A stretch of 64,000 nt of DNA from Methylobacterium nodulans ORS 2060 (lineage in GTDB: Bacteria > Pseudomonadota > Alphaproteobacteria > Rhizobiales > Beijerinckiaceae). Location: positions 6,867,001 through 6,931,000 of the forward strand of contig NC_011894.1 of assembly GCF_000022085.1 (NCBI RefSeq), read 5' to 3'. The notes under the pieces were generated by a model. That model did no database searches, was not told the origin of the DNA, and saw nothing but the letters and a program-made list of their open reading frames with translations. The position numbers were made by a program, and so were the translations under genes. Position 1 is the stretch's first letter. Every line of letters starts with the position of its first letter. Below, piece by piece: positions 26,100 to 43,199 of this stretch.

Positions 26100-27565
26100 G
26101 AGCCCGTCCGAGTAAGTACCTCGACGGCGGCGCTTTGGGATGATTCACTCGGCTCATGGCCAAGGTGTTTCGCTCCTGGGACGTCGATCAGGGCTGGCTG
26201 CTGCCACCCTCGCTGCATGAGTTCGTGCCGCCCGGGCACATGGCGCACTTCGTGCGCGATACGGTGCGCGAGGCGCTCGACCTCTCAGCCATTCTCGACA
26301 CCTACACCGAGGAGCGCGGCTACCCGCCCTACCATCCCGGCATGATGGTGGCCCTGCTCCTCTACGGCTACAGCCGCGGTCTGTACTCGTCGCGTCAGCT
26401 CGCCCGCGCCTGCGAGGAGCGGGTTGACTTCATGGCCGTGACCGGCCTGAACCGGCCCGACTTCCGCACCATCGCTGACTTCCGCAAGCGGCATCTGACG
26501 GCGCTCTCGGACCTGTTCGTGCAGGTGCTGCGGCTGTGCCGGGCGGCCGGGCTGGTCGGCTTTGCCCACGTGGCGGTGGACGGCACCAAGCTGAAGGCCA
26601 ACGCCTCGCGCCACAAGGCGATGAGCTACGGCCGGATGAAGGCGGCCGAGTCGACGCTGGCCGCCGAGGTCGAGGCTTGGCTGGATCAAGCGCGCGAGGC
26701 CGACGCGGCGGAGGATCGGGCTCATGGGACCGACCATCGTGGCGACGAGACACCGGCCTGGATGGCCGACAAGCAGCGGCGGCTGGAGACGATCCGCGCC
26801 GCCAAGGCCGCGTTGGAGGCAGAGGCTGCCGATCCGCCCGATCCGGAGGACGAGGACGGGCCGGGGGCCTCGTCGGGCATGCGCTGGCAAGGTCGGCCCT
26901 TGCGGGGCGAGGACGGCGGTCCGCCCGACCGGGCGCAGCGCAACTTCACCGACCCGGACAGCCGCATCCTGCCCACGCGCGACGGGTTCGTGCAGGGCTA
27001 CAACGGCCAGATTGCGGTTGATGCGGCCCATCAGGTGATCGTCGCGCATCGGCTCGTGACGAACCCCGCCGACTCGCGCGCTCTCGTGCCGCTCGTCGAC
27101 GGCGTCTGCACCCATCTCGGGCGCAAGCCGCGGGAGGTCTCCGGAGATGCCGGCTTTGCCACCGAGGCGAACCTGGCCGCGCTGCAGGAGCGACGGATCA
27201 CAGCCTATCTCGCTCCGGGCCGTGCCCGTCACGGCGAGGCGGATGCAGCAGGTCGCCGGAGGCTGACGAAGATGCCCCTGATGAGCGCGATGGCCGTCCG
27301 CCTGAAGCGGGCTGGGCGCCGGAGCCGTTACCGTCTCAGGAAGCAGGTCGTCGAGCCGGTGTTCGGGCAGATCAAGCAGGCCAGAGGCTTCCGACAGTTC
27401 CTGCTACGTGGGCTCGATCAGGTCCGCGGCGAGTGGGCGATGATCTGCACCGCCCATAACCTCCTGAAGCTGGCGCAGGCCGCGCGCTGAGCCTGTGGCG
27501 CAGGAGCCATCCGCCCAGATCTCAACCTTAGTCCCAACGCATCAAACCGTTACTCGGACGGGCTC
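26100..27565 (+). mobile_element. Complete IS1182-family insertion sequence
   Basis: A 1466-bp element bounded by perfect inverted ends. The sequence CTAGGAGCCCGTCCGAGTAA at 26096 is repeated exactly inverted at 27550-27569. CTAG is present on both outer sides and may be the target duplication or part of the ends. One intact transposase gene fills the element. The intact gene and perfect ends suggest recent insertion. Confidence 0.85.
26156..27490 (+). CDS. IS1182-family transposase
   Basis: A 444-residue DDE transposase. The N-terminus WDVDQGWLLPPSLHEFVPPG and the segment MTG-like VTGLNRPDFRTIADFRKRH are characteristic of IS1182. The catalytic segments include HVAVDGTKLKANASRHKAMS, a central DGFVQGYNGQIAVDAAHQVI (with the second acidic residue) and the C-terminal KQVVEPVFGQIKQARGFRQF carrying the glutamate. 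The frame is uninterrupted and fills the element. Confidence 0.93.
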   Translation: MAKVFRSWDVDQGWLLPPSLHEFVPPGHMAHFVRDTVREALDLSAILDTYTEERGYPPYHPGMMVALLLYGYSRGLYSSRQLARACEERVDFMAVTGLNRPDFRTIADFRKRHLTALSDLFVQVLRLCRAAGLVGFAHVAVDGTKLKANASRHKAMSYGRMKAAESTLAAEVEAWLDQAREADAAEDRAHGTDHRGDETPAWMADKQRRLETIRAAKAALEAEAADPPDPEDEDGPGASSGMRWQGRPLRGEDGGPPDRAQRNFTDPDSRILPTRDGFVQGYNGQIAVDAAHQVIVAHRLVTNPADSRALVPLVDGVCTHLGRKPREVSGDAGFATEANLAALQERRITAYLAPGRARHGEADAAGRRRLTKMPLMSAMAVRLKRAGRRSRYRLRKQVVEPVFGQIKQARGFRQFLLRGLDQVRGEWAMICTAHNLLKLAQAAR

Positions 27566-28551: not shown

Positions 28552-28641
28552 GGAAGGGTGGCCGAGTGGTTTAAGGCAGCGGTCTTGAAAACCGCCGTGG
28601 GGGCAACTCCACCGTGGGTTCGAATCCCACCCCTTCCGCCA
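28552..28641 (+). tRNA. tRNA-Ser (anticodon UGA)
   Basis: A 90-base tRNA with a 7-bp acceptor stem (GGAAGGG/CCCTTCC), a discriminator G and an encoded CCA. The anticodon stem-loop is GCGGT-CTTGAAA-ACCGC giving anticodon TGA, followed by the long variable arm typical of class II tRNAs and the T-loop TTCGAAT. Its 3' end serves as attachment site for the downstream element. Confidence 0.97.
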
Positions 28642-28642
28642 G
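28625..28642 (+). other. attL: tRNA-Ser 3' end, 18-bp direct repeat
   Basis: TCCCACCCCTTCCGCCAG, covering the T-arm, acceptor 3' strand and CCA of the tRNA, recurs exactly at 41582-41599. The pair bounds the 13-kb integrated element; the copy here keeps the tRNA functional. Confidence 0.85.
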
Positions 28643-28738: not shown

Positions 28739-29074
28739 ATGGGCCTTGAGACCCGCCTTGTTCGCCGCAAGAACGGCACCTACTCGTTCCGAGGCTACGT
28801 CCCTCCCGAGTTGCGAGAGGCCATCCCTGGTGGCCGCAGCGGGCAGAAGTGGATTGCTCTCGGGACCGCTGATCGTGCTGAGGCAGTGCGTCGCGCTCGC
28901 CTCAAGTCGGTGGAGTTCGGCCGGGAGCTATCTGCGGCGCGGCGCCGGCTCTCAGGTGCCCAGGATGCCATCTCGCAGGCTGAGGCCGACCGGCTTGCCG
29001 CGATGTGGCTCTCCAAGTTCCTGAATGACGATGAAAGAAAGACCGGGGAGCGCCAATCGAGGTGGCGGGTCTGA
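28739..29074 (+). pseudogene. Truncated tyrosine integrase (N-terminal part only)
   Basis: The first roughly 100 residues (VRRKNGTYSFRGYVPPELRE through RAEAVRRARLKSVEFGRELS) match the N-terminal arm-binding domain of tRNA-targeting tyrosine recombinases. The catalytic domain with its R-H-R-Y residues is absent; the frame ends after 111 codons. Two GCTACAGGT motifs between attL and the ATG could be arm-type binding sites. It was probably the integrase that inserted this element. Confidence 0.75.
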
Positions 29075-29430: not shown

Positions 29431-29549
29431 GTCACAGAAGGGTTTACCGCTCAGGTACATCGTCCTGTTACGCTTGAGTGCGTCACAAAAGGGTTTACTT
29501 GGGGCTTTTGGTACATCACTGTCACAGGGTCTGGATCGTTCTGTGACAG
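29431..29549. promoter_or_regulatory. Res-like site upstream of the serine recombinase
   Basis: Two 17-bp direct repeats, GTCACAGAAGGGTTTAC at 29431 and GTCACAAAAGGGTTTAC at 29482, are each followed by GGTACATC (29454 and 29510). Next comes the inverted pair CTGTCACAG (29519) and CTGTGACAG (29541), ending 11 bases before the recombinase start. Repeated dyad units in front of a resolvase gene are the usual form of its res site and autoregulatory operator. Confidence 0.6.
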
Positions 29550-29560
29550 GATGCAGCCCA

Positions 29561-30118
29561 ATGGCCGTGTATGGTTACGCCCGCGTCAGTACCACCGACC
29601 AAGACCTCAGCCTTCAGGAGGAAGCTCTGCGGGCAGCAGGGTGCGAGGTCATTCGCTCAGAGAAGCGGTCAGGCACCAGCACGGAGGGCAGGACCGAGCT
29701 TCAGACGCTCATGGACTTCGCCAGAAAGGGCGACACCATCGTGGTGACCCGCATCGACCGGCTGGCCCGCTCCATTGCTGACCTCGCTATCCTCGTTCGG
29801 CAGCTTGAGGCGAAGGGAGTTGCCCTGAAGGCCACTGAGCAGCCCATCGACACGTCAACGGCTGCGGGACGCTGCTTCCTTCAGATGCTCGGGGTGTTCG
29901 CCGAGTTTGAGACGAACCTTCGCAGGGAGCGTCAGCTTGAGGGCATCGCCAAGGCCAAGGCTGCGGGCGTCTATGCGGGCAAGGGGCGCCCTGCTTCGGT
30001 GCCTGCTGAGAAGGTGAGGGAGCTTCACGCCACCGGAATGGGTCCGTCTGCCATCGCGAAGGAACTCGGCATCAGCCGCATGTCGGTGCACCGGGCGTTG
30101 AACCCGAAGGCCGCATGA
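29561..30118 (+). CDS. Serine site-specific recombinase (resolvase/invertase)
   Basis: A 185-residue small serine recombinase. The catalytic serine is in YGYARVSTTDQDLSLQEE (residues 4-21). Further conserved elements are the arginine-rich VTRIDRLARSIADLAILVRQ and FAEFETNLRRERQLEGIAKA, then the C-terminal helix-turn-helix MGPSAIAKELGISRMSVHRAL. Length and domains are complete, so it should be active. It probably acts on the repeat array just upstream. Confidence 0.93.
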   Translation: MAVYGYARVSTTDQDLSLQEEALRAAGCEVIRSEKRSGTSTEGRTELQTLMDFARKGDTIVVTRIDRLARSIADLAILVRQLEAKGVALKATEQPIDTSTAAGRCFLQMLGVFAEFETNLRRERQLEGIAKAKAAGVYAGKGRPASVPAEKVRELHATGMGPSAIAKELGISRMSVHRALNPKAA

Positions 30119-30154: not shown

Positions 30155-30511
30155 CTACCTCGTGTGGCTGCTAGTCTCATGCGGCCGATTGGCCTCTACG
30201 ATACTGACATACCTACTCGGAGTTGGAGTGCTGCCCCTCCAAGTCACATCGACTCTCGAGCTGTCCTTTTTGACCAATAGGTTGTATTTGCCTTCGCTAT
30301 CAGGCTCTCCTACTTCTTCAATACGAGCCATGAAGTAGGCAGGTTTATTGCTGGTCTCATGAAGGTAGAGCCAGCCACCCCGTAAAGCGGGCGCCTCTTG
30401 TGGAGAAATTCTCCAATACCCCGATCTAAAAACTCCCTGTCCTTTTCCAATTTGGAATAGGTTGTCTGGTCTGCCGTTCTTGTAATGGCAGATTGCGTGC
30501 ATTGCCTTCAT
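30155..30511 (-). CDS. 118-residue hypothetical protein
   Basis: An unrecognised soluble protein starting at MKAMHAICHYKNGRPDN after AAGGAGGGG. It is rich in aromatic and basic residues (FRSGYWRISPQEAPALRGGW) and ends in a Pro/Ser/His-rich tail. The beta-strand-rich pattern recalls small EVE/ASCH-like folds, but no signature residues confirm this. It is transcribed against its neighbours. Roughly 250 bases upstream (30512-30759) hold no gene I can support. Confidence 0.55.
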   Translation of the reverse strand: MKAMHAICHYKNGRPDNLFQIGKGQGVFRSGYWRISPQEAPALRGGWLYLHETSNKPAYFMARIEEVGEPDSEGKYNLLVKKDSSRVDVTWRGSTPTPSRYVSIVEANRPHETSSHTR

Positions 30512-30759
30512 TGAGCGCCCCTCCTTAGTGCCAAGCATACTGAGGACAAGGAGCGAAGGCGAGCGAAGCTCACAACTGTCCAAGGTCTTCATCATTAGGC
30601 TCACACTCGGAGCGGGTTTTGTATGTGATGCCGCCCTCGCTACCAGATGTGGTGCCTCTGCGCCTGTCAGGCAGGGGATGGACGCGGCTTCAATGCGCCT
30701 GAGCACGACACCTCAGGCCCCTTCCACGGTTGACCTCACGCAGCCGTAGGAGGGCCAGC

Positions 30760-31152
30760 GTGGCTTCTGCCGACCAACGCCTATCCGCCTCAGAGCCGAG
30801 CTTCTGGGTCGTCCTGGGCCTCTCAGCAGTGTACCTGTGCCTGAGTGGCCTGTTCATCGTAGCCCCGACCACAGGAGCTTCGATCTTCGGCATACCGGCT
30901 CCAGGCAACCTCGCTGATGCGTACCTTCGTGCTATCGGCTTCCGAGATGCTGCCTTGGCCCTCTATCTGGCTGGGCTTGCCTGCTTCTCGTCTAGGCGTG
31001 CGGTGGGCATCGTCCTGGGCGCAACCGTCCTCATCCCAGTCTGTGATGTCGCCCTCGTCCTGGCTGTAGGGACCGCAGCTTGGTGGCAGATCGGACTTCA
31101 TGCCCTCAATGGAGTCTGCCTGATTGTCATGACTACCTGGGTGCTGAGATGA
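30760..31152 (+). CDS. DUF4267-type four-helix membrane protein
   Basis: A 130-residue integral membrane protein with four hydrophobic segments. The pattern GASIFGIPAPGN, then AYLRAIGFRDAALALYLAG, then VLIPVCDVALVL fits the DUF4267 family of uncharacterised membrane proteins. Translation starts at GTG with TAGGAGGG six bases upstream. Function unknown. Confidence 0.65.
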   Translation: MASADQRLSASEPSFWVVLGLSAVYLCLSGLFIVAPTTGASIFGIPAPGNLADAYLRAIGFRDAALALYLAGLACFSSRRAVGIVLGATVLIPVCDVALVLAVGTAAWWQIGLHALNGVCLIVMTTWVLR

Positions 31153-31261: not shown

Positions 31262-31531
31262 ATGTCGAGGGTATGTAGCGCACCGGGTTGTTCTTCCCCG
31301 GCTGCGTCACGGTTCAGCCTGTACTGCAAGGCTCATAAGGCTCGTCTGCGCAGGCATGGAGCAGTCGATCAGGTCGGCGTTACGGAGGCCCTCCTGGGGT
31401 CGTACAAGCGCCTCGTGAGGGTTCGTATCGAGAAGAACAAGGAGAGCCCGCTGTGGGGTCAACTGGAGGCTCGGTGGGACACCATCGTGAGCCACGCTCA
31501 GAGCATCGTAGACGGCCACCAGCGTGGGTAG
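31262..31531 (+). CDS. 89-residue zinc-motif protein ending at an in-frame amber codon
   Basis: The N-terminus holds a Cys/His cluster, CSAPGCSSPAASRFSLYCKAH, of the kind that binds one zinc ion, followed by a basic stretch (KARLRRHG) and a helical region. CAGGAG precedes the ATG. The frame stops at TAG (31529-31531) but continues open in the same frame for 399 more bases to 31930, where it ends four bases into the polymerase-like gene. Either the protein is truncated, the TAG is read through, or the gene has decayed. Confidence 0.6.
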   Translation: MSRVCSAPGCSSPAASRFSLYCKAHKARLRRHGAVDQVGVTEALLGSYKRLVRVRIEKNKESPLWGQLEARWDTIVSHAQSIVDGHQRG

Positions 31532-31930
31532 ACGGGCTACTCGTTCGAGAGACGGGCTGCGCAGGAGGTCTTGAAGCTCGCGGCAGACGTGGAGCCCAAG
31601 GCGGTCGTAGAGACGGCTCTGGCCATGTTTCTCCTGCTAGAAGCTGAGCCACGGCGGTTTCGGTCTGACGCAGGCTTCCGTACTCAGCTTGTCAGGAGGG
31701 TTCGTGGTCTGACGGACATGAACGCCGGGACCTTCTGGGAGAACGACACTGGGAAGGTGAGGCGCGTGTACAAGGACGTACCACCACGAGCCATCGTCGT
31801 GATGGGGCAGTGGCTTGCAGAGGCATTTGGGGGAGCCGGGACGCACATGGCGAGGCTGGAGGAGCGTGACAGGCAGGAGCGGGAGAACGCTCGCCAGGAC
31901 TTCCATAAGGCCTTGGAGGAACTGCGGTGA
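31532..31930 (+). pseudogene. In-frame continuation after the amber codon
   Basis: An open stretch of 133 codons in the same frame as the zinc-motif gene. It has a normal-looking amphipathic composition (VEPKAVVETALAMFLLLEAE, GKVRRVYKDVPPRAIVVMGQ) and a charged coiled-coil-like C-terminus rich in Glu/Arg. A TTG at 31571 is the only start near a Shine-Dalgarno-like AGGAGG, but the two are only two bases apart, which is too close. I therefore read this as the second half of a 223-codon gene rather than an independent one. Confidence 0.5.
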
Positions 31931-33243
31931 TGACGGAGCCTACCCGGCACCGCTGGTTTGACGACTTCAGGGGAGCCAAGGCGCCACGCTTACTCAGCCT
32001 CGTTCAGCAGGTGACTGCTCAGGTAGACGAGCACGAGAAGGTTCACGAGCCGCGCAAGCATGTACGTCGGCAAGAGGACCAGAGGCGGCACGAGACGGCC
32101 ATTGAGGCCATCGTCGCCAACCTCGCCCACGCCGTGCACCTGCCGCCTGAGCTGGGTCGTCTTGCGTGTCTGGTGGGGAACTCAACCGAGAGACGCACTC
32201 GGTATGACAGCTCCGTCTTCGGCAAGGGCTTCCGGAAGCTCCTATGGCGGCTTGAGGAGGCGGGAGTGCTCGATTGGAACCGCTCCTTTGAGCGTGGCCA
32301 AGCCTCGACCACCGCTCCTACCTCAGCTTTCGCTGAGAGGGTTCGCGAGGCTGGTGTAGAGCTGTCCGACTTCCGCCGACTCCCTGGTGAAGAGGTCATC
32401 CTGCTTTCGCAGAAGACCCTCCTGTCTGCTTCCGGCCAAATCATCAGTCATAAAGCCATGGTGGACTACGCCGACACGCCAGAAATACGGCAGATGCGGC
32501 AAACCATACGGGAGATAAACGCATTCCTTGAAGGGGCAGACATCAGCTTTATAGACGATGGGCTTGGTCCTGTAGACGCCTACCAGCGCACCATGCGGCG
32601 TCATTTCGTCCTGAAGCCCACTGACAAGGACATTCGCTTTGACCGCAGAGAACGGCTGTTCGGAGGCTTCTGGCAGAACCTTAAGCGTGCGAGAAGAGGA
32701 GGTATCAGGATAGGTGGCGAGGAGGCCGCTATCCTCGACTTTTCCTCGATGTTCCCACGGTTGGCCTATGCGAGTGCTGGAGCTACACCTCCTGAAGGTG
32801 ACGTCTACGCCATTCCTGGCCTGGAGAACCACCGTAGAGGGGTTAAGCTTGTGCTGAGTACTCTCCTCTTCGACAATAACAAGAAGCGCAAGAGCTGGCC
32901 ATCTGAACTCCTTATCGGAGATGCCGATACCCATGAACCAAGCCTACCGGAAGGATGGACAGTTAAGCATACGAGAGCCGCTATCGCAGAAGCACATCCA
33001 CCGTTGGCTAACTGCCTTGGAGATGGCCTTGGCTACAGCTTAATGCACATAGAGAGCCGTATCCTGGTCACCGTGCTTGAGGAGTTGAGAGCAAGGGGCA
33101 TTGTTGCTCTTGGCCTGCATGATGGCCCGATGGCTCCTTGGTCAAGGAGGGAAGAGGTGAAAGCCTTAATGGAGGATGTAGGTAGGAGGATTACCTCTAT
33201 CCACTTGCCTGTTGAGATCACATCAGCGGCTATGAACCACTGA
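31930..33243 (+). CDS. Compact family-A DNA polymerase-like protein
   Basis: A 437-residue protein without an annotated name I recognise. Its C-terminal half has the three polymerase motifs of family A in order. Motif A is ILDFSSMFPRLAYASAG (D270). A fingers-helix motif B is HRRGVKLVLSTLLFDN (R302, K306; compare RxxxKxxxFGxxYG). Motif C is ALGLHDGPMAP (H397-D398). The 250-residue N-terminus is helical and basic, with no 3'-5' exonuclease motifs. The ATG overlaps the preceding stop (TGATG), so it is coupled to the zinc-motif gene. Polymerase assignment is by motif pattern; it could be an inactive or primase-like derivative. Confidence 0.55.
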   Translation: MTEPTRHRWFDDFRGAKAPRLLSLVQQVTAQVDEHEKVHEPRKHVRRQEDQRRHETAIEAIVANLAHAVHLPPELGRLACLVGNSTERRTRYDSSVFGKGFRKLLWRLEEAGVLDWNRSFERGQASTTAPTSAFAERVREAGVELSDFRRLPGEEVILLSQKTLLSASGQIISHKAMVDYADTPEIRQMRQTIREINAFLEGADISFIDDGLGPVDAYQRTMRRHFVLKPTDKDIRFDRRERLFGGFWQNLKRARRGGIRIGGEEAAILDFSSMFPRLAYASAGATPPEGDVYAIPGLENHRRGVKLVLSTLLFDNNKKRKSWPSELLIGDADTHEPSLPEGWTVKHTRAAIAEAHPPLANCLGDGLGYSLMHIESRILVTVLEELRARGIVALGLHDGPMAPWSRREEVKALMEDVGRRITSIHLPVEITSAAMNH

Positions 33244-33937: not shown

Positions 33938-35518
33938 ATGTCGCGCTACGCTGATCTGGCAAAGCTCAAGGTTCCCTTCTCGATAACATACGGCTCCTAC
34001 ACATTCGACGAGACAACCGGCACAGCAGTATTCACAGCGCTGCCCACGAGCCAGTATCCAGTGGGCCCCCTAAGTACCCGCCCTACACTTCTCTCGGGTG
34101 ACTACACGACTGCTCGTAGCTATGATAACGCTGATGACTTCAGTGATTTCTTTTACGTTAACTCGCTTGAGCTTGGTTCTTTTGCGTACTATACCTACAC
34201 TCTGATTCCTGGAATTGGAACCAGGAGCACATTAGCGGGGGTAGGACAAGTCGGAGTTGACGATGAAGACCACGTCATCGTAAGAGAAGGACTGCAATAC
34301 TTTCTGATCGGTCGAGGAGAGCGTCTCGACCCCGGCGATCAGGTTATCATTCATGACCAAGCCGAATCCACGTTCCGGCCATCCTTAGAGTCGGTCGTCA
34401 GCGGAGATGCTGACAACAACTCGGTCGATGGCACATCGGCCAACGATGAAGTCTACGGCCTTGCTGGCAATGACACCGTCCGTGGCCTTGATGGCGACGA
34501 CCTCCTCTTTGGAGGGTCCGGAGACGACTTCGTGCATGGTGGGTTCGGCAATGACCGCTTAGAAGGCAATAAGGGGAACGACGGGCTCTTCGGTGATCCG
34601 GGCCGCGACGCCCTCTCGGGAGGAGAGGGACAGGACGCTCTGTACGGTGGCCTGGATGATGACATTGTCTACGGCGATGCGGGGGACGACCTCGTCTTTG
34701 GCCAGGAGGGCAATGACAGCGGTTTCGGGGGGGTCGGGAACGACTTCCTCTCAGGCGGTGACGGTAACGACACGCTCGACGGCGGGGAAGGTAATAACCT
34801 ACTGTTCGGGGACGAGAATGATGACCGCATCACGGCGGGCATCGACAATGATCTCGCTTACGGCGGAACCGGAAACGATGTGATCTTCGGGCAGACCGGC
34901 AACGACGCCCTGTTCGGTGAGACCGGGGACGACTTCATCGGGGCAGGCTCTGGAGATGACTTCCTCTCAGGCGGTGATGGTAACGACACCCTCTTCGGCG
35001 AGGAAGGCAACAACCTGCTGTTCGGGGACGAGAACGATGACCGCATCTTGGCGGGCACCGGAAACGATCTCGCTTACGGCGGAACCGGGAACGATGTGAT
35101 CTTTGGGCAGACCGGCAATGACGTCCTATTCGGTGAGACCGGGGACGATTTCATCGGGGCGGGCGCTGGAGACGACCTGCTGTCGGGCGGAGCTGGTATC
35201 GACTCGCTCTTCGGCGAGGATGGCAACGACCTGCTGTTCGGCAACTCAGGTGATGACGAACTGGTGGGCGGAGCTGGTGCCGATACCTTCTTCGTGGGGC
35301 TGGGCGATGGGCATGAACTCATCCGCGACTTCGCGGCGAGTGGCCCCGATCACGACCTGATCAAGTTCAACAACGGTCTGGCGTCCTTTGCCCAGGTGCT
35401 CGGGGCCAGCGAGCAGATTGGCTCGGATGTGGTCATCACACTCAGCTCAGACACCAGCGTGACGCTTCAGAACACCACGCTGGCGAGCCTGACGGAGGAC
35501 GCCTTCCGGTTCGCGTGA
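33938..35518 (+). CDS. RTX (hemolysin-type calcium-binding) repeat protein
   Basis: A 526-residue acidic protein. The first 160 residues are unrelated to the repeats and unrecognised. From about residue 165 there are some twenty GGxGxDxLx nonapeptides, such as LAGNDTVRGLDGDDLLFGGS, which fold into a Ca2+-binding beta-roll. The C-terminus (ADTFFVGLGDGHELIRDF onward) is a peptidase-M10-type serralysin tail. No N-terminal signal peptide, so export by a type I system is expected, yet no transporter gene is adjacent. A 216-bp unit is tandemly repeated within the gene. Confidence 0.9.
   Translation: MSRYADLAKLKVPFSITYGSYTFDETTGTAVFTALPTSQYPVGPLSTRPTLLSGDYTTARSYDNADDFSDFFYVNSLELGSFAYYTYTLIPGIGTRSTLAGVGQVGVDDEDHVIVREGLQYFLIGRGERLDPGDQVIIHDQAESTFRPSLESVVSGDADNNSVDGTSANDEVYGLAGNDTVRGLDGDDLLFGGSGDDFVHGGFGNDRLEGNKGNDGLFGDPGRDALSGGEGQDALYGGLDDDIVYGDAGDDLVFGQEGNDSGFGGVGNDFLSGGDGNDTLDGGEGNNLLFGDENDDRITAGIDNDLAYGGTGNDVIFGQTGNDALFGETGDDFIGAGSGDDFLSGGDGNDTLFGEEGNNLLFGDENDDRILAGTGNDLAYGGTGNDVIFGQTGNDVLFGETGDDFIGAGAGDDLLSGGAGIDSLFGEDGNDLLFGNSGDDELVGGAGADTFFVGLGDGHELIRDFAASGPDHDLIKFNNGLASFAQVLGASEQIGSDVVITLSSDTSVTLQNTTLASLTEDAFRFA
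34745..35392 (+). repeat. 216-bp tandem repeats within the RTX gene
   Basis: Units begin at 34745, 34961 and 35177, spacing exactly 216 bases (72 codons, eight nonapeptides). The first two encode almost identical segments starting FLSGGDGNDTL and ending FIGAGSGDD/FIGAGAGDD; the third diverges after LLSGGAG. The region is a candidate for length variation by recombination. Confidence 0.75.
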
Positions 35519-35944: not shown

Positions 35945-36046
35945 ACCGCACGATAACCGGGATCGTGGGAGCGGATACCAGCCTGTTCATCCGGAACGAG
36001 TCTCGTCAGGCGTGAGTTGGAGGACGGCACCGAGAGGGTACGAGTT

Positions 36047-36604
36047 ATGGACGTCTGGCAACTCATCGCGCGCGACCACGCCAACATCACTGATCTCATC
36101 CGTGAGATACCGTACGCTCTCAACGGTCCAGGAGTGGTGCGCAGCCGTGAGCAGCTTCTGGCCGACCTCATCGACGAGCTGGACGCCCACGCAGAGGCTA
36201 TCGATGCAAGCCTGTTGGAGCCGTTGAGCGCGCACAATAGGGCATCAGGGCTAATCAGCGACCTGCGCCGTGAGGACCATCAGGTGATGCAGCAGCTTGA
36301 CCAGCTTGCAGCATACCGTGGCAAGGGCTCCCAAGGGTGGCTCAACACCTTCGAGGACGTGACCTATCTCGTTGACCAGCACCTCTCCCGGCACACCAAC
36401 GAACTGCTGCCTCTGGCCCGTGAGGTCTTGTCGTCCGAGCAGGTTCAGAACGCGACCAGCACGTTCATACGAGCCAAGATGCGGGCGTTGCAGTCAGGAA
36501 CTCGCAGCCGACCTCAGACGGCCGCCGGCGGTGGGCTGTTCGGGGCAGTCGCTGTTCTTGCGGCTGTGGCTCTAGGGCTCATCGCGTTGCGTTCAGCGCT
36601 CTAG
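36047..36604 (+). CDS. Hemerythrin HHE-domain protein with C-terminal membrane anchor
   Basis: A 185-residue protein. A four-helix bundle with metal-ligand pattern is visible: ARDHANITDLI (helix 1), ELDAHAEAIDASLLEPL (helix 2), RREDHQVMQQLDQL (helix 3) and DQHLSRHTNELLPLA (helix 4). This is the HHE cation-binding fold that carries a di-iron centre for O2, NO or redox sensing. The C-terminal LFGAVAVLAAVALGLIAL is a transmembrane helix, placing the domain at the membrane. ATG at 36047 is preferred over one 30 bases earlier. It is followed 11 bases later by a small gene. Confidence 0.85.
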   Translation: MDVWQLIARDHANITDLIREIPYALNGPGVVRSREQLLADLIDELDAHAEAIDASLLEPLSAHNRASGLISDLRREDHQVMQQLDQLAAYRGKGSQGWLNTFEDVTYLVDQHLSRHTNELLPLAREVLSSEQVQNATSTFIRAKMRALQSGTRSRPQTAAGGGLFGAVAVLAAVALGLIALRSAL

Positions 36605-37184: not shown

Positions 37185-37667
37185 ATGGATGCTCTGCCGG
37201 CCTTCTTCGGGCTGTTCGTCACCTCACTCATTGCCGGCACGTTCCTGCCGTTTCTGCCTGGGTCCTCTGAGATGGCCATGGCCGGGCTCTTGGCTGCTCA
37301 GGCCGGGAGTCTGGTCGCCCTCCTGGCAACTGCCGTGATCGCGAACGTCATGGGCGCAACTATCAACTACCTCATCGCCCGCAACGTCGCTGGCCTGGCG
37401 GATCGCCGCTGGTTCCCCCTGTCTCAGTCAACTCTGGACAGGGCTACGGCTTGGTTCGAGCGGTACGGGGTATGGGCGCTGGCCTTGTGTTGGCTGCCAA
37501 CCTTCGGCGATGCCATCACCGTCATTGCTGGGCTCCTCAGAGCCGACATCCGTCTGTTTCTGGTCTTGGTCTTTGCGGGGAAGTCATTCGGCCATGGAAC
37601 AGTCGCCTTCGGTCTGACATGGCTCACCGACACTCAATCTTCTGCAAGCCCTCACTGGCCTGGCTGA
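37185..37667 (+). CDS. YqaA-like (DedA-superfamily) membrane protein
   Basis: A 160-residue inner-membrane protein of the YqaA/SNARE-associated type. The conserved features are LIAGTFLPFLPGSSEMAMAG near the N-terminus (the G/P-rich re-entrant loop with the acidic residue), the amphipathic DRATAWFERYGVWALALCWL and GDAITVIAGLLRADIRLFLV, then a final helix. DedA-family proteins influence membrane phospholipid flipping. Complete length; no clear operon partner. Confidence 0.82.
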   Translation: MDALPAFFGLFVTSLIAGTFLPFLPGSSEMAMAGLLAAQAGSLVALLATAVIANVMGATINYLIARNVAGLADRRWFPLSQSTLDRATAWFERYGVWALALCWLPTFGDAITVIAGLLRADIRLFLVLVFAGKSFGHGTVAFGLTWLTDTQSSASPHWPG

Positions 37668-38312: not shown

Positions 38313-38640
38313 TCAGGCAGTCCCACTCTCGATCCTGCTGAGAACCCTGGCCACCTGAACGACTGACCACTCACCACCTCGGGCTGTCGGAATGCCTTCC
38401 TGATTAAGCTTGGCCGCCGTAGCCCTCAGGGAGGCCCCAGAGGCCCGAAGGTCACGGATGGCAAGGAACACGTCCTCAGCCCGGCTATCGGCCTCCCTGG
38501 CCCCCACAGTGGCACTCGCAGCCCGTCCCTTGGCGCCGTCTTTACTGAGATTGCCTCTGTCGCCTCCCAGCCGCACACCACAGGCCTTAGCTGCTGCCGG
38601 GTGTGCTTCAGGCCCTCAGCCCACCATCAGTGGCGCTTTG
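38313..38640 (-). pseudogene. Serine recombinase C-terminal remnant, copy 2
   Basis: An open minus-strand stretch encodes IRDLRASGASLRATAAKLNQ, then EGIPTARGGEWSVVQVARVL. This is the C-terminal helix-turn-helix region of large serine recombinases or resolvases (pattern LNxxGIPTxxGGxWxxxxVxRVL). The catalytic N-terminal domain is missing. Confidence 0.65.
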
Positions 38641-41581: not shown

Positions 41582-41599
41582 TCCCACCCCTTCCGCCAG
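41582..41599 (+). other. attR: second copy of tRNA-Ser 3' end
   Basis: TCCCACCCCTTCCGCCAG, identical to 28625-28642. It marks the right end of the 13-kb element and, being next to another integrase, may also be the left attachment site of a second island. Confidence 0.85.
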
Positions 41600-41700
41600 G
41601 TGATTTCAGAAATTCCCTTTTGTTTTCAGTTAGATAGCCGAGATTGTTGACGAGCTGCCCGCCGGCGGGGCACGGTTTCGTCCAACATCGCCGGCTCCCG

Positions 41701-43012
41701 ATGCCCGAGGTCCTGACGCGACGCCAAGGCTTCTGGCACTTCGTGCGCCGCGTCCCCGCGCCGTTCGCCGCCCTCGACCGGCGCGGCGTCGTCAAGCGAT
41801 CCACGCACATCCGCATCGCCGACGACCCCCGAGGCGTGCGGGCCGCCCGCGCGGCCGCGCAGATGAACAGCGATCTCGAAGCCTATTGGCAGGGCCTCGC
41901 CAGCGGACAGAGTGCGGGGGCGAAGGCGCGCTACGATGCCGCGCGCAAAGCGCGCCCGCCAGCTCGGCTTCAGCTACATGCCGGCGGCCGAGGTCGCGAC
42001 CCAGCCGCTCGCCGAGATCCTGGCCCGCATCGAAGCGCTGGCCGCCCGCGACGTTGCCGACGATCCCGCCACGCGCGGCGCAGTCCTGGGCAAGGAACCC
42101 GTTCCGGTCGTGCTGCTCTCGCAGCTGTTCGACCAGTACGAGACCCTGACCGGGGCCGCGCGCCAGGACCTCTCGCCGGACCAACTGCGCAAATGGGCCA
42201 ACCCGAAGAAGCGCGCCCTCGCCAACCTGCTGAAGGTGGTCAGAGACAAGCCCGTCACGGAGCTGACCCGCAACGATGCCCTCGATTTCCGGGTCTGGTG
42301 GCAGGAACGCGTGCTCGTCGCGGGCATCGAGATCGCCACGGCCAACAAGGACGTCGGCCACATCAACCGCATGCTCCGGCAGATCGAGCGCAGTCATCGG
42401 CTCGGCATGGGCCCGGTCTTCGCCGAGCTTCGCCTGGAAGGGGAGACCCAGGGCCAGCGCGTGGCTTTTGCGCCGGAATGGGTGCAGACCCGGATCCTTG
42501 CGGAGGGCGCCCTCGATGCGCTCAACCCGGAGGCGCGCCGCATCCTCTACATCATGGCCGAGACTGGGATGCGTCTCTCCGAGATCTGCAACCTGACCGC
42601 CGAGACGATCCGCCTCGACCACCAGGTGCCGCACGTGGTGGTGCGCGCCGATGGGCGGCGGATGAAGACCAAGCAGTCGGCTCGCGAGCTGCCGCTGGTC
42701 GGGTTGGCGCTGATGGCCGCCCAGGCGCAGCCCGAGGGCTTCCCGCCCTATCGCGACAAGGCCGCCTCGCTCTCGGCGATCACCAACAACGTGATGCGCT
42801 CGGCCGGCCTGCTGCCGCTGGAGGGGCAGTCGGCCTACTCGTTTCGGCACTGCTTCGAGGACCGGCTGACGGCGGTCGAGGCGCCCGAGAAGCTGATCGC
42901 AGCGATGATGGGCCACAAGTACCAGCGCCCGCGCTATGGGGCGGGCCCGAGCCTCGCGCAGAAGCAGGAGTGGCTTCAGCGGATCGCGTTCACTCCGCCG
43001 TCGAGCGTGTAG
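41701..43012 (+). pseudogene. Frameshifted tRNA-targeting tyrosine integrase
   Basis: The N-terminal frame (VLTRRQGFWHFVRRVPAPFA to SGAKARYDAARK-type sequence) and the following frame (RARQLGFSYMPAAEVATQPL onward) join into one protein of about 435 residues if a single G near 41949 is ignored. The catalytic part is otherwise complete: GMRLSEIC with the first arginine, SFRHCFEDRL with His and Arg, and the tyrosine in PRYGAG after MMGHKYQ. A one-base insertion or a sequencing error inactivates it. It sits 100 bases after attR, the normal position for an island integrase. Confidence 0.82.
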
Positions 43013-43199
43013 GCGTTCAGCGCGTAAGCGGGGTGAGCCTACGCGACCCGCTTAGAGCGGGATGCGATCAGGTTGCATTGTAGCGTGTGGCAGCGAGATA
43101 GCTTCGGCACTCGGCTGGTCGGCAGCGGACGAGCGCGTGTTTGATGGCGGACCAGAGGTCCGGGTTCGCGCGTGGAAGAGCTTCTGACGTGACGCAGAA

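Follow-up and report, generated by a model that had tools for sequence, protein, structure and literature searches.

A probable TV-Pol-type family-A polymerase on a putative integrative element at a tRNA-Ser gene of Methylobacterium nodulans ORS 2060

We analysed a window of 64,000 nucleotides from the chromosome of Methylobacterium nodulans ORS 2060 (NC_011894.1, positions 6,867,001 to 6,931,000 of the forward strand) which contains a gene for a 437-amino-acid polymerase-like protein (window positions 31930..33243, + strand). The genome carries nifH, and PMC8561711 gives nitrogen fixation only for M. nodulans and some Microvirga. We consider it moderately probable that an integrative mobile element carries this protein as its TV-Pol-type polymerase and that it primes and copies the DNA of that element. 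The protein agrees with a family described in 2008, the TV-Pols, and this kind of system is already known (PMC2579912). That it is a categorically new polymerase is rejected in view of the 2008 description.

The open reading frame (ORF) of the polymerase runs from 31927 to 33243 (+), with the 437 residues counted from the ATG at 31930. Motifs A, B and C, as first noticed, are present in the right order (DFSSMFPRLAY, then RRGVKLVLSTLLFDN, then LGLHDG) and are conserved across 45 aligned relatives: R242, D270 of motif A, Y293, K306 and D398 of motif C are identical in 45/45, R302 of the fingers motif R302-x3-K306 in 44/45, H397 beside D398 in 43/45 and D291 in 42/45. The picture of conservation was unchanged in an alignment of 43 sequences, and invariance across the 45 relatives rules out that the motifs arose by chance. 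The best 50 structural matches of the predicted model were nearly all DNA polymerases, and a profile alignment with PolA fell in the expected register with a weak score. The family-A assignment proposed earlier is therefore supported by predicted fold, by register and by invariant catalytic residues; the fold matches did not lead to a non-polymerase family, and D270, K306 and D398, on which the assignment had been made to depend, do not vary. By computation the family-A palm is complete, the fingers are short and an exonuclease is lacking, the last as previously claimed; no Pfam nuclease domain was matched in 43 family members. The protein shares palm fold and motif order with PolA but differs in its short fingers, in its lack of an exonuclease, in the absence of any PF00476 match (0/43 members at E up to 1) and in having no Glu after the motif-C Asp (42/43). 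One sequence search of the PDB gave no matches and a second, with a profile, gave two weak ones, of which the stronger (E 0.021) paired profile positions 47-137 with an Orc2 chain. A promoter scan found none, against 0.8 expected by chance.

TV-Pols were described by Iyer, Abhiman and Aravind as minimal family-A polymerases of mobile elements, 400-600 amino acids long and predicted to be primase-polymerases (PMC2579912). Their hallmarks are an absolutely conserved Arg in a hairpin, an RxxxK motif and a conserved Asp in the fingers, a pair of Asp in the palm and no nuclease; the thumb is an N-terminal two-helix coiled coil, and in a subset with an N-terminal domain the neighbourhood holds a gamma-delta resolvase, a lambda-type integrase or a transposase (PMC2579912). 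The window family shares the palm Asps, RxxxK, the fingers Asp, the hairpin Arg, the lack of a nuclease match and the recombinase neighbourhood (33/49 loci). In the predicted model, R242 sits in strand 241-245, which fits the TV-Pol beta-hairpin Arg, and there are long helices at 19-39 and 48-70. A D5-like helicase, fused or adjacent, marks another TV-Pol subset and not all members, and primase activity was argued from this linkage (PMC2579912), whereas the window family has no D5 helicase beside the 24 loci examined. The legend of Fig. 2 of the same paper names M. nodulans and M. populi by species, the main text giving no protein identifier. We rejected the view that its M. nodulans entry is a D5-linked polymerase elsewhere in the genome: profile A1, which may miss such distant members, gave no convincing match in the 14 and 13 kb around the two D5_N genes (best E 0.24). 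A candidate TV-Pol from phage Ma-LMM01, a protein beside transposases which we picked ourselves from the 50 of 162 kb scanned, gave an hhalign E of 0.11.

The reported link to a tRNA gene holds. The insertion site is a tRNA-Ser (TGA) gene at 28552..28641 (+), the 3' end of which forms an 18-bp left end repeat (28625..28642, +), and an exact copy of these 18 bp at 41582..41599 (+; BLAST E 1.1e-4) forms the right end, so that the repeats enclose about 13 kb. After the tRNA gene comes a 111-amino-acid DUF6538 piece (28739..29074, +) which may be what is left of the N-terminus of the tyrosine integrase of the element; between this piece and 41.9 kb there was no match to an integrase catalytic part. 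It is followed by a small serine recombinase of the resolvase/invertase type (214 amino acids, 29474..30118, +), which like the polymerase has an intact ORF. Despite this intact polymerase ORF, what looks like a truncated integrase and a stop in the gene preceding the polymerase make it probable that the element is decaying.

We compared the flanks of 48 further places with those of the window, giving 49 loci. Of the 48, 40 had been selected with a view to spread, and without knowledge of their neighbours, from the places matched in the genome searches with phrog_4756, the window protein and the family alignment described below, and 8 came from named genomes. Neighbours were clustered by all-against-all comparison, in which the polymerase ORF of one locus (L084) fell outside the polymerase cluster and the integrase counted for the window was that of the neighbouring insertion rather than the element's own. 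A serine recombinase was found in 25 loci, a tyrosine integrase in 24, either in 33, both in 16 and neither in 16; in 18/49 an integrase and a tRNA gene lay no more than 400 bp apart. As a background we ran the same recombinase profiles on 22 of these genomes (107 Mb), obtaining 93 places for serine recombinases (0.87 per Mb) and 75 for tyrosine integrases (0.70 per Mb), or 0.017 and 0.013 expected per 19.3 kb. Among the 24 polymerase loci of these 22 genomes a serine recombinase lay within 9 kb in 17 and a tyrosine integrase in 18, both figures being favourable to a mobile-element polymerase because the genomes were chosen after their neighbourhoods had been seen and because the loci themselves had supplied the sequences for the profiles. 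In the 49 loci, which were not chosen by their neighbours, the proportion is still about half, against 2 per cent in the background. Pfam searches of 100 neighbours from 13 loci gave Phage_integrase (9) and Resolvase (7) among the 25 of 81 families listed.

On the reading that we favour, the integrase would excise the element, the polymerase would then prime and copy its DNA with no need of a separate primase, and the products would be resolved by the serine recombinase. In some elements an adjacent zinc-finger/helical protein may bind the template and enable priming, by analogy with MP for CCPol. Several observations weigh against this scheme. Phages carry the polymerase gene beside a regular polymerase (PMC11348598); 16 of the 49 loci have neither recombinase cluster, including C-terminally extended copies from the same genus, L081, L082 (the fetched neighbourhoods of L002 and L003) and L091; D5_N was found at four places in the 22 genomes and beside none of the 24 loci, in a search aimed at D5_N and not at other helicase types; and the zinc-finger/helical partner is present at only a minority of loci.

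The partner gene is interrupted in the window by a stop, either a mutation or a sequencing error. Its first part, a zinc-finger part of 89 amino acids (31262..31531, +), ends in TAG, and its second part, of 119 amino acids (31571..31930, +), lies in the same frame and overlaps the start of the polymerase gene. In separate searches the two ORFs aligned with different stretches of one and the same ORF in L049 (Hyphomicrobium), in L017 (the same place as L093) and in L012; being in one frame and matching one continuous ORF elsewhere, they point to a single interrupted gene. The coupling described earlier needs correction: a TGATG overlap exists at 31928-31932, but it joins the polymerase gene to the 119-residue ORF and not to the Cys/His ORF, which does not overlap it and is the first part of a broken gene rather than a zinc protein of its own. 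Neither are homologues always paired with such a protein, as the partner was found in 9 of the 48 other loci with flanks, always 10-713 bp from the polymerase and on the same strand, upstream in six and downstream in three; the L012 partner, fetched with short flanks, is additional to these. Ten aligned partner sequences have C6, C11, C22, H25, R31, H32 and G33 in common, and a model built from them (predicted local distance difference test score 89.4) is a zinc finger plus helices, helical apart from short strands. No known fold could be assigned (best Foldseek match to the PDB E 0.15, none at or below 0.001), and a copy of the polymerase N-terminus was also rejected (hhalign E 0.78). The partner may have a role in template binding or priming.

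Relatives of the polymerase occur in bacteria and in phages. The phrog_4756 profile, which the window protein matches over residues 56-416 (E 6.1e-19), gave matches in 18/61 near genomes and 3/25 genera, a search with the window protein matched 21/385 genomes of its class, and a family alignment matched 24/398 genomes of its phylum. Among named genomes, 8/45 pattern-matching stretches encode relatives (Kaistia, Methylorubrum, Ancylobacter, Hyphomicrobium, Cupriavidus), and relatives were found on three plasmids. While tblastn with the window protein itself found nothing in phages or viral contigs, phage records were matched by the more central queries L042 (228) and L020 (105), with phages of Rheinheimera, Vibrio (ICP1) and Aeromonas among them; scans of viral contigs with AUR84708 and with a partner relative gave nothing. 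AUR84708, the representative of phage divPolA2, belongs to the same sequence family, matching both phrog_4756 (E 1.8e-91) and profile A1 (E 8.5e-21, probability 99.3). It has F for H before the motif-C Asp (VFDE in place of VHDS; L137:25472-26761), and in the phages the neighbour of divPolA2 is a regular polymerase, with no element recombinases. In a midpoint-rooted FastTree of 45 sequences and 395 columns the four phage proteins cluster together, and the window protein falls beside those of Kaistia, Ancylobacter, Methylorubrum, Hyphomicrobium and one copy from its own genus (L017). Other copies from the same genus (L002, L003, L006, L010, L020) carry Pro/Ala-rich C-terminal extensions of about 240-285 residues beyond motif C.

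The experimentally tested relative is CCPol-MP of the staphylococcal cassette chromosome (SCC) SCCmec, one of the TV-Pols, in which MP enables priming by CCPol (PMC7581432). In this system and in the PolA-SSB primases the partner is an OB-fold single-stranded DNA-binding protein (SSB) and a helicase of COG3378/D5 type lies in the operon (PMC7581432, PMC10061031). By description, these systems and ours share, on an integrative element, an exonuclease-less family-A polymerase that has a small partner and a serine recombinase beside it; they differ in that the partner modelled here is a zinc finger plus helices instead of an OB fold and that no D5 helicase is adjacent at the 24 loci. We tentatively raise, as a doubtful proposal, that some family-A polymerases of mobile elements, the window polymerase among them, form a branch without D5 helicase and become primases through a zinc-finger/helical subunit that is not related to the SCC OB-fold SSB; the phage divPolA2 proteins would be relatives of this branch. 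If true, a Pol I-like core would have arrived independently at de novo priming. The comparisons tie together three things described apart, namely the TV-Pols of bacterial elements of 2008, the previously unannotated phage family PHROG 4756 and the divPolA2 of 2024; in the accessible portions of the literature using either term, we found no statement of a family link between TV-Pol and divPolA2. What is added is that the phage and element families are one, that no D5 helicase lies beside the loci checked and that a zinc/helical partner recurs. Whether or not this neighbour is the stand-alone domain described in PMC2579912, it offers a direct handle on how DNA chains might be started by a Pol I-like core that has no dedicated primase.

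It is unlikely, in our estimate, that mobile elements and phages instead keep this DNA polymerase for repair or translesion synthesis and not as their replicase. Such a function would agree with the lack of an exonuclease, with the absence of a D5 helicase beside the 24 loci and with the divPolA2 of Caudoviricetes, which adjoin a regular PolB in neighbourhoods that vary and for which repair is proposed in PMC11348598, where the term TV-Pol occurs once, in the Background. The bacterial members, however, accompany element recombinases, and no repair genes were seen among the 25 of 81 Pfam families listed. The same fold could also serve a single-subunit RNA polymerase acting in transcription or RNA priming, which we regard as distinctly improbable given the predominance of DNA polymerases among the best 50 structural matches and the preference of CCPol for deoxynucleoside triphosphates (PMC7581432). 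That the polymerase has a defence function, one suggestion of the preliminary description, and is carried as cargo has found no support so far and seems very improbable: type I restriction parts do occur among the 100 neighbours from 13 loci, at three or fewer each (HsdM_N 3, HSDR_N 2), but PADLOC gave no matches for five proteins (three family members, a partner and the resolvase), and the family is also found in the many phage records matched by L042.

The remaining genes of the region include two ORFs between the resolvase and the partner gene (30155-30706, - and 30730-31152, +), of which one has no significant family match and the other is DUF4267. Downstream of the polymerase, the element encodes a 526-amino-acid protein with RTX calcium-binding repeats (HemolysinCabind, E 8.7e-94; 33938-35518), which we take to be cargo, a hemerythrin-domain protein (36017-36604) and a VTT-domain membrane protein (37185-37667). 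An 86-amino-acid match to the Recombinase domain of large serine recombinases (38313-38576, -) is likely the remnant of another insertion. Just behind the right end repeat lies a second tyrosine integrase (41644-43083 and 41912-43012), with its DUF6538-like start and catalytic part in different frames, as if a further element were inserted in tandem, and just outside the tRNA-Ser end there is an intact-looking DDE transposase (DUF772/DDE_Tnp_1; 26156-27490).
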